From the NCBI GenBank assembly GCA_026397175.1, contig JAPLVK010000018.1:7413-52799 (forward strand): 45,387 nucleotides of DNA, written 5' to 3'. This DNA comes from Candidatus Berkelbacteria bacterium (GTDB lineage: Bacteria > Patescibacteriota > UBA1384 > DTJR01). The first letter of the stretch is position 1. Each line of letters opens with the position of its first letter. The notes under the pieces are model-generated. The model was not told the DNA's origin, did not search any database, and was given only the letters and a program-made list of their open reading frames with translations. Of the stretch, positions 26,571 to 31,317 are shown in pieces. The position numbers and the translations under genes were made by a program.

Positions 26571-26622
26571 TTATTTTTTATTTGTGATAAATTCAGCATA
26601 TCAGCAAATAAATTTTAAGAAA

Positions 26623-26688
26623 ATGCCAAACCATAATTTGATTGTAATTCCGACATTTAACGAAAAAGAGAATATCGAACGGCTGTCG
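26623..26688 (+). pseudogene. 5' fragment of a GT2 (PPM1/DPM1-like) gene
   Basis: MPNHNLIVIPTFNEKENIERL, homologous to the start of the intact gene at 30208 (RNEVLIVIPTFNEKENIAKL); homology ends abruptly. Confidence 0.75.
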
Positions 26689-26696
26689 AAACTGCG

Positions 26697-26917
26697 ATTG
26701 GCGTACCAATTATCAACTGCTATTTGTCATCCCGAGCTTGTCGAGGGATCTCTCGCGAATGCGAGATTAAACCTGAAGCCATTCGACTATGCTCATGGTC
26801 TTCGACAAGTTCAGAGATTCTTCGGCTAAACGCCTCAGAATGACGCCCTATCCTCCTTCTGCAGAGGATACATCAGGTTGACATAAGATAAGAGAATCAG
26901 ACGATTGGTACGCTAAT
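26697..26917. repeat. Repeat block bounded by 14-bp inverted repeats
   Basis: ATTGGCGTACCAAT (26697-26710) versus ATTGGTACGCTAAT (26904-26917), 13/14 complementary; interior has GTCATCCCGAGCTTGTCGAGGGATCT and CAGAATGACG. Confidence 0.55.
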
Positions 26918-26929
26918 AAACTGCGACTA

Positions 26930-26958
26930 TTGATTTCTTGAAAGAGTTTTGCTATACT
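26930..26958 (+). promoter_or_regulatory. Predicted sigma70-like promoter of the DGR target gene
   Basis: TTGATT - 17 bp - TATACT. Confidence 0.6.
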
Positions 26959-26997
26959 TTGCAACTAAATTGCACCTTTAAATATTTAGGATATTCC

Positions 26998-27085
26998 GGG
27001 ATAAGCACAGTGAAGATCAAATTATTGGTCTTTAGCGTGCTTATCCCAGTAGAGGGATGAGTCCGTTACTGCCTAGCAGAACGGA
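26998..27085 (+). promoter_or_regulatory. Structured 5' leader upstream of DGR target gene
   Basis: GGGATAAGCAC/GTGCTTATCCC perfect 11-bp stem (26998-27047) enclosing AAGATCAA/TTGGTCTT; second hairpin TCCGTT-A-CTGC-CTA-GCAG-AACGGA (27062-27085). Confidence 0.7.
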
Positions 27086-27106
27086 TTATCGAGAGGAGAG
27101 TTGGCG

Positions 27107-28003
27107 ATGGAAATCACCGCAACTCAAAAACTGGCGTACCCCGACATCCGTGATGCCCTAGAGCTTTTTGTCGGGGCAGGGTTAGACCCTGACCTTGTGG
27201 ACAAGATGCGCAAATCGAAAGACAATGCGCTTGCCCGCAAGATGATCGGTGTTGGTCGTGTCGGCTATGAGTCGCTTGACGAGCGGTTCGCACGCAGGAT
27301 CATGGGTGGCAACTTCTTTGGACGCGACGAGTGGAGCGACCCCAGTACATACGGCGTCAGCTTCAACTCCAAGCAGTCCAGGGTAGTCGCCAAGTTCCCG
27401 TGGAGCGAAGCCATGCTCGATTCCGAATGCGAAAAGGTTCCCGGCAAGAGTGTTGCCGAGGCCTGCTTCGCTTTCCTCGGACTTGACAAGTATAACGGCG
27501 TCATCATTGGCGCGCAGAGCGAGAAGCTCGACGGCACCGAGGCGCATGGTTCACTGACCATCATGGGGTGGCAGAAAATCCACCCAGCCGGTGGGCAGCC
27601 GTGTTTTTACATCTACGGCACCGACTGCTGGTATCCCAATGAGGATTTCGCGACTAAGCCGACCAGCGTCTGCGAGTTCCGCTGGTATCTGGCACTCAAG
27701 GAGGTCGTGCCCGGTTCGCCCAGCACCAGCTGGGAGAACATGCAGGGCATGGTTCCCGACGAGTACTTCGTACCGTCGCCGGTCATGGAGCTGACCAAGG
27801 ACTTCTTGTATTATCAGAAGTTCAAGGCCTATCCGAACCGCAATGTCTACGCCGCTACCGACACTCTGGATTCCCTCGGCGTCCGTGTCATAGTCGGCGA
27901 CTGCGACGGCGAGACGGTCGATGTCGACTACTGGAGTGGCGACGCCCTCGGCGATGTCGGTCTGCCTCTCTTCCGGAAGTCCCCACGATCCTTGTGCTCT
28001 TGA
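27107..28003 (+). CDS. DGR variable (target) protein
   Basis: RBS GAGGAGAG; C-terminal region 27864-27978 is a near-repeat of TR with A-specific substitutions. Confidence 0.93.
   Translation: MEITATQKLAYPDIRDALELFVGAGLDPDLVDKMRKSKDNALARKMIGVGRVGYESLDERFARRIMGGNFFGRDEWSDPSTYGVSFNSKQSRVVAKFPWSEAMLDSECEKVPGKSVAEACFAFLGLDKYNGVIIGAQSEKLDGTEAHGSLTIMGWQKIHPAGGQPCFYIYGTDCWYPNEDFATKPTSVCEFRWYLALKEVVPGSPSTSWENMQGMVPDEYFVPSPVMELTKDFLYYQKFKAYPNRNVYAATDTLDSLGVRVIVGDCDGETVDVDYWSGDALGDVGLPLFRKSPRSLCS
27864..27978 (+). repeat. DGR variable region (VR)
   Basis: Aligned to TR 28475-28589 (offset 611): in the 114-bp core all 16 mismatches are at TR adenines; one further A-to-C at the first base. Confidence 0.96.
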
Positions 28004-28026
28004 GGACTTGTCTCTTTTGTGAACTG

Positions 28027-28074
28027 GAGCCTCGATTGTGTCCGCCTTTGGCGGACCCGATACGGGGCTCTTTT
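28027..28074 (+). terminator. Terminator downstream of DGR target gene
   Basis: GAGCC...GTCCGCC TTT GGCGGAC...GGGCTC followed by TTTT. Confidence 0.75.
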
Positions 28075-28474
28075 CCTTTTCATAAAAATAGAATATATTA
28101 TTTTTATCTTGCCAATATTGGCTCGGCTACGCCTGCCTGTCGGCAGACAGGGCTTAGCCATGCGAGATATCCTAGCTTGATTCGCCGGAATATTGCCTCT
28201 TCCCGCCTGCCTGCTCCTCGAGTCTGATCCTTGCGGTTTGATCGTCCCGAGCTCACCGTCGAAGGAGAGTCGAAGACCGGTAGGCAGGAAGGGCAGTAGT
28301 GTGCGATTATAGATAGAGATTGAACTTCTTGCTTGCTTTTGGTGGAGATGCTGCTTTGGTAGCTGCTCCCAAATAAAATTCAGGAAAAGAAAGAGAGCAT
28401 ATAGTCCAGCCCTTTACAAAAGAGCTGGAAGTAAAGCTCGATTTCCGGTGATAAAAGATGAAAGTAAGCAAATT

Positions 28475-28589
28475 ATCTGGATTCCAACGGCAACCGTGTC
28501 ATAGTCGGCAACTGCAACGACAAGACGGTCGATGTCAACAACTGGAATGGCAACGCCAACGACAATGTCGGTCTGCCTCTCTTCCGGAA
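28475..28589 (+). repeat. DGR template repeat (TR)
   Basis: TCTGGATTCCAACGGCAACCGTGTCATAGTCGGCAACTGCAACGACAAG...; rich in AAC/AAT codons in the VR frame; no reading frame of its own matching the target. Confidence 0.95.
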
Positions 28590-28606
28590 CTTCCTTCTTT
28601 ATCTCT

Positions 28607-28957
28607 TCAAGCTTCTTTAGTGGATTTTATCCAACCGCCAAGCATGCGGCCAATTTCATCAATGCTTTCTTCAAGTGTTGAGTATTTTTTAATGTCGATT
28701 GCTTTAACATCTTTCATCAGACGAATTAATACTCGCAAAAAATTGAGGTTTAAGCTGACTTTTTCGAGCGTTGGTGATTTCTCGATCTTAGTTTGCTGAC
28801 TGGCCAATAAAATTCCTTCGATAATTTCGAGCATCGAATTCTCGACTCGAAGATAAACGGTATAACGGTCTTGCTTGGAGACAGAACTTCGAATACCGTA
28901 AAACTCCTTGTAAAGCGAGTAAGTTTTCTTAAAAATCGGCATGTCAAATTCTTCCAT
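28607..28957 (-). CDS. avd: DGR accessory variability determinant-like four-helix bundle protein
   Basis: 116 aa; DRYTVYLRVENSMLEIIEGIL...LEKVSLNLNFLRVLIRLMKDVKAIDIKKYSTLEESIDEIGRMLGGWIKS typical of Avd. Confidence 0.88.
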   Translation of the reverse strand: MEEFDMPIFKKTYSLYKEFYGIRSSVSKQDRYTVYLRVENSMLEIIEGILLASQQTKIEKSPTLEKVSLNLNFLRVLIRLMKDVKAIDIKKYSTLEESIDEIGRMLGGWIKSTKEA

Positions 28958-29045
28958 AATTTTCTTTCTTTATATTATTGATTAGGTTTTTTATTGAAGG
29001 CAGATTTGTGTTCCGTCCACAAATCCCCAAAAACCTCCTTTCTTT

Positions 29046-30158
29046 ATGAAAATATATACTGATTTGTTTGAAAAAATTATTTCGCTTGAAAATTTGTTCA
29101 CCGGTTTTGATGAATTTAAGCGCGACAAGCAAAACAAAAAGGATGTTCTCAAATTCGAGTGGAATCTCGAGAGTAATATTGTCGAGCTTCACCGTGAGCT
29201 AAAATACCACAATTATAAACACGGTGTCTATACCAAATTCATAATTTGCGACCCGAAGCCAAGAATCATTCACAAAGCGACTGTTCGCGATCGGGTCCTG
29301 CATCATGCAATTTTCAGCGTTTTGAATCCCTTGTTTGAGCCGTGTTTCATTTCGCATTCATTTTCTTGTCGAGTTGGCAAAGGCACACATAAAGGAGTGG
29401 AGACATTGACAAAAATTCTACGCCAAGTCAGTCAAAATGGCACAAGACCCTGCTTTGCTCTGAAATGTGATGTTAAGAAATTCTTTGCTTCAGTTGATCA
29501 CTCGATTTTGCTTGGAATAATAAAAAGGAAAATAAAAGATGACGAAGCGATTTGGCTTCTTTGGGAAATCATAGAAAGTTTTCCATCGGCGAGCCAAATC
29601 GAGCCTCTCGACAAGCTCGGGATTTACGAGAGAGAGAATACTTTTTGTCCACGGCAGGAATCGCTTTTTGCAAAACACGGTTTACCGATTGGCAATTTAA
29701 CCAGCCAGCTTTTTGCCAACATTTATCTCAATGAATTCGATTATTTTATCAAACATGAACTTCGAATAAAAAATTATTTGCGATATACGGATGATTTTGT
29801 GATCGTGGGCCGGAGTGAAGGGGAGCTGCTCGAATTACTCCCGAAGATTGAGGAATTTTTATCTACAAAGTTAAAACTTTCGCTTCATCCGAATAAAGTT
29901 GAGATCAGAAAATACAGGCGAGGCGTTGATTTCTTGGGTTATGTCGTTTTGCATAAACACATAAAATTGCGAACCAAAACCAGTAGGAGGATATTCAAAA
30001 AACTAAAAAAAAGAATTGAGCAGTATAAATCCGGAATAATTTCTAAAAATACGCTCGTGCAGTCGCTAAATTCTTATCTCGGCGTTTTATCACATGCCGA
30101 TTCGTATAAATTGTGCAATGAGCTTGAAAATAGTTTTTGGTTTTGGCTCAGGGAATAA
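29046..30158 (+). CDS. DGR-type reverse transcriptase
   Basis: KPRIIHKATVRDRVLHHAIF, FALKCDVKKFFASVDH, GLPIGNLTSQLFANIYLNEFD, LRYTDDFVIV, FLGYVV. Confidence 0.95.
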   Translation: MKIYTDLFEKIISLENLFTGFDEFKRDKQNKKDVLKFEWNLESNIVELHRELKYHNYKHGVYTKFIICDPKPRIIHKATVRDRVLHHAIFSVLNPLFEPCFISHSFSCRVGKGTHKGVETLTKILRQVSQNGTRPCFALKCDVKKFFASVDHSILLGIIKRKIKDDEAIWLLWEIIESFPSASQIEPLDKLGIYERENTFCPRQESLFAKHGLPIGNLTSQLFANIYLNEFDYFIKHELRIKNYLRYTDDFVIVGRSEGELLELLPKIEEFLSTKLKLSLHPNKVEIRKYRRGVDFLGYVVLHKHIKLRTKTSRRIFKKLKKRIEQYKSGIISKNTLVQSLNSYLGVLSHADSYKLCNELENSFWFWLRE

Positions 30159-30207: not shown

Positions 30208-31317
30208 ATGGTCATGAGAAATGAAGTTTTGATCGTGATTCCAACATTTAACGAAAAAGAAAATATCGCGAAATTGATTAAAAAAATTCGGGATTTTAAA
30301 ATTGACGCCGATATTTTGGTAGTGGATGATAATTCGCCGGATGGGACGGGGAAAATTGCCGATCAAATTTCAAAATCAGATAAAGGTGTTTTTATTTTGC
30401 ACAGGAAGGAAAAAACAGGCCTGGGTCGGGCTTATGTTGCCGGATTTAAGTGGGGGATAGAGAATGGCTACAAAAAATTAATCTCGATGGATGCCGATTT
30501 TTCTCATCCCGTCGAAGCGCTCGAAAAATTAATTAATTTATGCAACTCAAAAACGGTTGTGATCGGTTCAAGGTATACAAAAGGCGGGAAAATTACCGGC
30601 TGGAAGTGGCCGAGATATGTAAACAGTTGGGGCGCAAATTTGGTAACTCGGACATTGCTGCAAATTAAAGCGAAGGACGCGACCGCGGGGTTTAAGTGCT
30701 ACCCGGTAGAGTTTTTGAAAGCGATAAATTTAGATAAAATTCAGGCCTCGGGCTACGCTTTTCAGGTTGAAATGCCGCTTTTGGCGCAAGATAACGGTTT
30801 TAGATTGGTTGAAACACCCATTACATTTGCCGATCGGATTTCGGGGGAATCAAAAATTTCTGGCGAGCTTATGAAATCAGCCAAAATTGTTTTTAAATTA
30901 GCCGCCGGCAAAAAATCGTATCGCCAATTTGTTAAATTTGCGATTGTGGGCGCAATCAATACAGTTGTTGACTGGGCGATTTTTTATCCTATCAGCATTG
31001 TTTGGCTTAAATCCCCGGGCACGCTTTCGGCACAATCAATTAAACAAATTAGCAAGGCGATCTCCTTTATTTTCGCGGCGGCTTCGAGTTATTTTATGAA
31101 TCGTGCCTGGACTTTTCGATCTAAAGATAAAGCCATCGCCAAACAGGCGGGGAAGTTTTTTGTGGTTGCGTTGGGGGGGTTGATTATTAATCAGATTGCA
31201 TTTTACGGCGCAACGGCGATTTTAAATTGGCGGAGCATTTTCGGCCTAATTGCCGCTACCGCCGCCGCAACACTGTGGAATTTCTTTTTGAATAAGGTTT
31301 GGACTTTTAAGAATTAA
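30208..31317 (+). CDS. Dolichyl-phosphate mannosyltransferase-like GT2 fused to GtrA-like membrane domain
   Basis: LIVIPTFNEKENIAKLIKKI...VVDDNSPDGTGKIAD plus C-terminal FVKFAIVGAINTVVDWAIFYP...YFMNRAWTF...FFLNKVWTF. Confidence 0.93.
   Translation: MVMRNEVLIVIPTFNEKENIAKLIKKIRDFKIDADILVVDDNSPDGTGKIADQISKSDKGVFILHRKEKTGLGRAYVAGFKWGIENGYKKLISMDADFSHPVEALEKLINLCNSKTVVIGSRYTKGGKITGWKWPRYVNSWGANLVTRTLLQIKAKDATAGFKCYPVEFLKAINLDKIQASGYAFQVEMPLLAQDNGFRLVETPITFADRISGESKISGELMKSAKIVFKLAAGKKSYRQFVKFAIVGAINTVVDWAIFYPISIVWLKSPGTLSAQSIKQISKAISFIFAAASSYFMNRAWTFRSKDKAIAKQAGKFFVVALGGLIINQIAFYGATAILNWRSIFGLIAATAAATLWNFFLNKVWTFKN

Follow-up and report, generated by a model that had tools for sequence, protein, structure and literature searches.

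The window, the 45,387-nt stretch of DNA analysed here, contains a complete and intact diversity-generating retroelement (DGR) of the CPR type, a cassette that randomly rewrites a section of one protein. We consider it very likely that this copy, which belongs to a CPR clade of DGRs, is in the ON state and that DGR activity in the clade is under phase variation, brought about by microsatellites in the genes for the reverse transcriptase (RT) and Avd. Taken alone, the focal DGR adds one member to an already known kind of DGR. The wider reading is built on repeat tracts and their placement, on the three registers in which they are found, on intact flanks under purifying selection, on variable repeats beside out-of-frame genes that are altered almost only at adenines and on the absence of MutS. 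From these observations we infer slippage rates, reversal and benefit. The coordinates of the features are collected in Table 1.

Table 1. Features of the focal DGR in the window, and the other DGRs of the same genome.
Feature	Position	Strand	Remarks
Structured leader	26989-27067	+	Upstream of target; long hairpin and a third strand repeating its 5' arm
Target gene	27107-28003	+	DGR target, 298 aa, VR at C-terminus; relatives in other CPR loci
VR (variable repeat)	27865-27978	+	Ungapped alignment to TR
Terminator-like hairpin	28027-28070	+	3' of VR, predicted from fold; similar hairpins after VR in relatives
TR (template repeat)	28476-28589	+	Differs from VR at 16 positions, each an A
avd	28607-28957	-	Antisense to both TR and RT; its end lies 18 nt away from TR; 5' end without repeat tract
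DGR reverse transcriptase	29046-30158	+	370 aa, intact, GLPIGNLTSQ
Loop, RT residues 188-206	29607-29663	+	Low-confidence, directly before GLPIGNLTSQ; insertion relative to tract-free relatives (alignment)
(GA)5 tract	29628-29637	+	In RT frame, codons 195-198; relatives have (GA)8-22 at this site
L032, L033, L034, L035			Four more complete DGRs of the focal genome

TR and VR align without gaps over a core of 114 nt, and 16/16 mismatches fall on TR adenines (A to G in ten cases, A to T in four and A to C in two). The remaining 15 of the 31 adenines in the TR core are the same in VR, as are all T, C and G positions. If positions were random, the probability that all 16 mismatches hit an A by chance would be 2.3e-11, which bears out the A-only mutagenesis from TR to VR that an earlier note on this DNA had claimed. 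The 13 altered residues that it saw at the C-terminus of the target protein likewise correspond to 13 changed codons in the target gene. Its TR and VR coordinates hold for the core but not for one extra 5' base (28475/27864, A to C), which lies just outside it. The final 25 nt of the core are identical in the two repeats and VR ends close to the target stop at 28003, as expected of an IMH. Across the whole genome, no further strong match to TR was found beyond TR itself and the focal VR; a second VR suggested by a weak match at C20:16558 was rejected, the match being another DGR's own TR. The target protein has no match in Pfam, PHROG or NCBIfam and its AlphaFold model, with a pLDDT of 42, is too poor to be searched for a C-type-lectin or Ig-like fold. 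The phmmer matches of the target to coronavirus spike chains were discarded as short, weak and chance-like. The G+C content of the target gene is 58%, that of the window 42% and that of the neighbouring RT gene 38%.

The two proteins described in the earlier note as lying next to TR, an Avd-like protein and an RT with the motif IGNLTSQ, are both present. The first lies above the curated cut-offs of Pfam bAvd (PF22296; 71 bits, cut-off 40) and NCBIfam NF033474 (87 bits, cut-off 80). The second scores 407 bits with PHROG 1423 and carries the motif as part of GLPIGNLTSQ, in which SQ replaces the SP of QGxxxSP. That this enzyme belongs with the DGR RTs is supported by sequence and by fold: the phage (BPP-1-type) DGR RT 8ub7 is its best solved relative by sequence (2.9e-44) and also the best match in a fold search (E 3.1e-23, TM 0.88 to target), ahead of group II intron RTs. 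The nearest RT relatives that have a named lineage come from CPR/Patescibacteria genomes, which suggests that the host belongs there as well. The model of the RT has a mean pLDDT of 86, and residues 188-206 form the only segment below 50. With RT, Avd and an A-specific TR/VR pair, the set is complete and the identification of the locus as a DGR stands.

The focal locus shares the RT fold and family, Avd, an A-specific TR/VR pair and a C-terminal VR in the target with the DGR of the Bordetella phage BPP-1, and differs from it in layout. In BPP-1, avd precedes TR on the same strand and a spacer lies between TR and RT (PMC12875486), whereas the focal avd is antisense and placed between TR and RT. 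The repeat tracts found in the RT or avd genes of relatives of the focal locus are a further difference from BPP-1. The antisense orientation of avd to RT is found in 4/5 DGRs of the focal genome and in 77/77 avd-bearing loci of a named-genome collection, almost always head to head; TR/VR pairs were detected in 68 of these 77 loci, with TR mostly ending no more than about 70 nt from the avd stop. The cassette order of the clade is TR, antisense avd, RT. Viral DGR RTs mostly have the classical arrangement, with avd on the RT strand in 72/78, and a same-strand avd is also seen in a smaller clade that includes L035, the fifth DGR of the focal genome.

A search with the focal RT returned five DGR RT genes in this genome, which is 1.0 Mb in size and 93% complete and in which the window lies on contig C26. 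Each of the five RTs is accompanied by an avd and a TR of its own, and for each TR there is an A-specific VR. The four further DGRs, as well as the microsatellite in the RT gene, were absent from the earlier note. In L034 one TR serves two VRs in two targets; one of these is 953 aa long and, judged by eye, has a MoxR-like AAA ATPase region. Multiple DGRs per CPR genome have already been described (PMC10907252), and the DGRs known from CPR and DPANN genomes (Paul 2017, Roux 2021 clade 2) resemble those reported here in the CPR host, in the presence of several DGRs per genome and in having domain-less targets and AAA-ATPase targets (PMC8144416, PMC10907252).

In several relatives the RT gene is broken up into two frames that overlap in the loop before GLPIGNLTSQ, a place occupied by a (GA)n tract; such loop tracts, 16-44 nt long, are present in 16 loci. 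Among 61 genomes, 27 sites have at least ten GA units, and 21 of them fall within DGR RT genes or at their 5' ends. Two more lie just upstream of DGR targets that are DUF1566-like, a label given by similarity to the target of L035 and not by family search, and four are elsewhere. The binomial probability of this concentration is ~1e-58, with gene totals that are rough. Within the focal genome, four of the eight sites with at least 9 nt of GA are found in four of the five DGR RTs (P 6e-8). In a separate collection of 80 loci, a tract of poly-G/C, CT or GA is found in half, at the overlap of the avd and RT starts. In 38 loci the tract separates an avd ATG from the avd domain, and in each of these 38 avd genes the frame is open from the upstream ATG as far as the tract. 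Poly-G/C runs of at least 9 nt occur 33 times in the avd-RT segments of the same 80 loci (116 kb) versus once in 507 kb of flanks, a 144-fold higher density, and no excess of poly-A/T over the flanks was found there. A test of poly-G placement in the focal class showed that DGR specificity is lacking in that class. Tracts occur at three places in the cassette, the avd start included, and at each of them can break the frame. Many relatives are tract-free, and the pattern is mostly missing from viral DGR RTs, with tracts in 2/80. The RT tree, which comes from a quick search and has many weakly supported forks, shows at least 17 changes in the presence of a tract, a pattern of repeated gain and loss.

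Some long GA tracts lie outside RT and avd. The tracts of L138 (3017-3046) and L139 (2334-2357), 24-30 nt long, lie upstream of DUF1566-like DGR targets, and target expression might also be phase-variable at these loci. Besides those of its DGRs, the focal genome has a single long GA tract, at about 8453-8480 of L052 (G000:C11:14452-14479); it is located ~80 nt upstream of a gene for a large surface-type protein with fibronectin-like repeats, as judged by eye.

It could be argued that these are ordinary CPR DGRs with constitutive RT and Avd, and that the tracts arise neutrally because mismatch repair is weak and the loop accepts any sequence. MutS (MutS_V over the cut-off) was found in 0/31 genomes, compared with 11/14 controls; with MutS missing and the RT loop disordered, slippage should be frequent anywhere, and the many relatives without a tract agree with such neutrality. 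Yet neutral tracts should then be scattered over the genome, and not gathered in DGR RT genes as the long GA tracts are. Poly-A/T shows no excess, and one tolerant loop cannot explain three frame-breaking places, of which one is the start of avd. We therefore regard neutral tracts as improbable.

The reading frames bear on the preferred reading, phase variation, more directly. Among the tract-bearing genes, those out of frame outnumber those in frame: nine avd genes are in frame and 13 and 16 are in the other two registers, the corresponding RT counts are 5:8:7 with five in frame, and an even split is not rejected for either gene. Two loci that are 87% identical, L123 and L126, differ in having a tract of 13 nt in frame and of 17 nt out of frame, respectively. 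This excess of out-of-frame copies, together with the origin of nearly all of them in draft metagenome assemblies, in which some tract lengths may be wrong, could mean that these genes are dead or that the assemblies are wrong at repeats. That explanation is very improbable. Apart from the tract itself, the tract-bearing RT genes have no lesion, and out-of-frame avd segments have a dN/dS of 0.08-0.09, indicating purifying selection. A-specific TR/VR pairs lie beside 12/14 out-of-frame RT loci, and the VR changes are nearly all at A, which suggests that those DGRs worked recently. The registers are even, and the existence of a tract is independent of its exact length.

Equally even registers are what slippage predicts and a programmed shift does not, and a programmed frameshift, which needs one fixed register, was rejected since all three occur. 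Transcriptional slippage can arise at homopolymer tracts, and it is conceivable that such slippage, or slippage of the ribosome, gives a low steady dose of RT or Avd from any register with no on/off switching, which would be in line with the maintenance of out-of-frame genes; however, RNA polymerase does not slip readily on dinucleotide tracts such as GA and CT, and slippage of the DNA is the property common to all the tracts, so that action at the RNA level is highly unlikely.

We favour phase-variable hypermutation, which would work as follows. By the known DGR mechanism, deduced here from the parts present, RT and Avd would make a cDNA copy of TR RNA that has errors at adenines, and this mutated cDNA would replace VR at the C-terminal end of the target gene. 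The GA tract in the disordered RT loop before GLPIGNLTSQ would gain or lose units by slippage, or, alternatively, a poly-C or CT/GA tract between the avd start codon and the avd domain would slip. RT or Avd would thereby enter or leave its frame, and hypermutation would be turned on or off in a heritable and reversible manner. In line with such a switch, the reconstituted BPP-1 DGR cannot retrohome without Avd (PMC12875486). We think it likely that the whole clade of bacterial DGRs is phase-variable in this bet-hedged, heritable and reversible way, with several independently switched DGRs per genome.

Contingency loci of Neisseria, Campylobacter and Haemophilus are similar in having a homopolymer or dinucleotide tract in the frame, three registers and a gene that is otherwise intact. 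Known contingency loci mostly switch surface structures or methyltransferases, whereas the gene switched here is the mutation machine itself. Frameshifts, homopolymers, microsatellites and truncated RTs are not mentioned in PMC8144416 or PMC10907252, and no report of phase-variable DGRs was found in the literature searched, which did not extend to Paul 2017 or Wu 2018; within that literature, and as far as shown there, phase-variable control of a DGR is unreported. If the reading holds for the clade, CPR bacteria, which have no MutS in the genomes tested, control hypermutation by a second and faster layer of mutation, and the microsatellite switch sits on the mutating enzyme or its helper. Surveys that rely on intact RT frames would then overlook many live DGRs, as most copies with a tract look broken in assemblies.

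The focal RT groups with those of L016 and L017, both of which have long, out-of-frame tracts (support 99), and at the shared RT-loop site its tract of 10 nt is in frame versus one of 27 nt in G039:C18 that is out of frame. Gain or loss of one GA unit in the focal RT ends the protein at residue 219 or 229. At (GA)5 the focal tract is too short to slip frequently, and its slippage is probably rare. With a tract of only 10 nt, we read the focal DGR as ON and probably close to fixed in that state. Within the same genome the DGR of L035, whose tract of 21 nt is in frame, is more promising as a live switch.

Further elements surround the cassette genes. The structured leader has a fold z-score of -6 and shows two-sided changes at 12/24 consensus pairs in seven relatives. 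Its covariance model matches CPR loci left out of its building, upstream of targets, with E down to 4e-9, and the leader occurs once in the focal genome. Judging from the sequences, three segments may form either of two pairings, as would befit an RNA switch. In most relatives (L053-L103) a strong hairpin with an A-rich and a T-rich side, which is missing in the focal locus, lies between TR and avd and is probably a terminator that acts in both directions. The idea that the antisense avd serves as an RNA scaffold 3' of TR was dropped, since this terminator-like hairpin separates TR from avd in the relatives; it is also countered by the saturation of synonymous sites in avd, seen in the closest focal-clade pair examined. 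A REP-like palindromic repeat is located at 26727-26880, and 17 nt of it match the RT-loop insert at 29607-29623 exactly, as if a REP-like element had been inserted in frame. On its left the cassette is bordered by a fragment (26622-26700) similar to the 5'-terminal part of the glycosyltransferase gene to its right (30208-30280).
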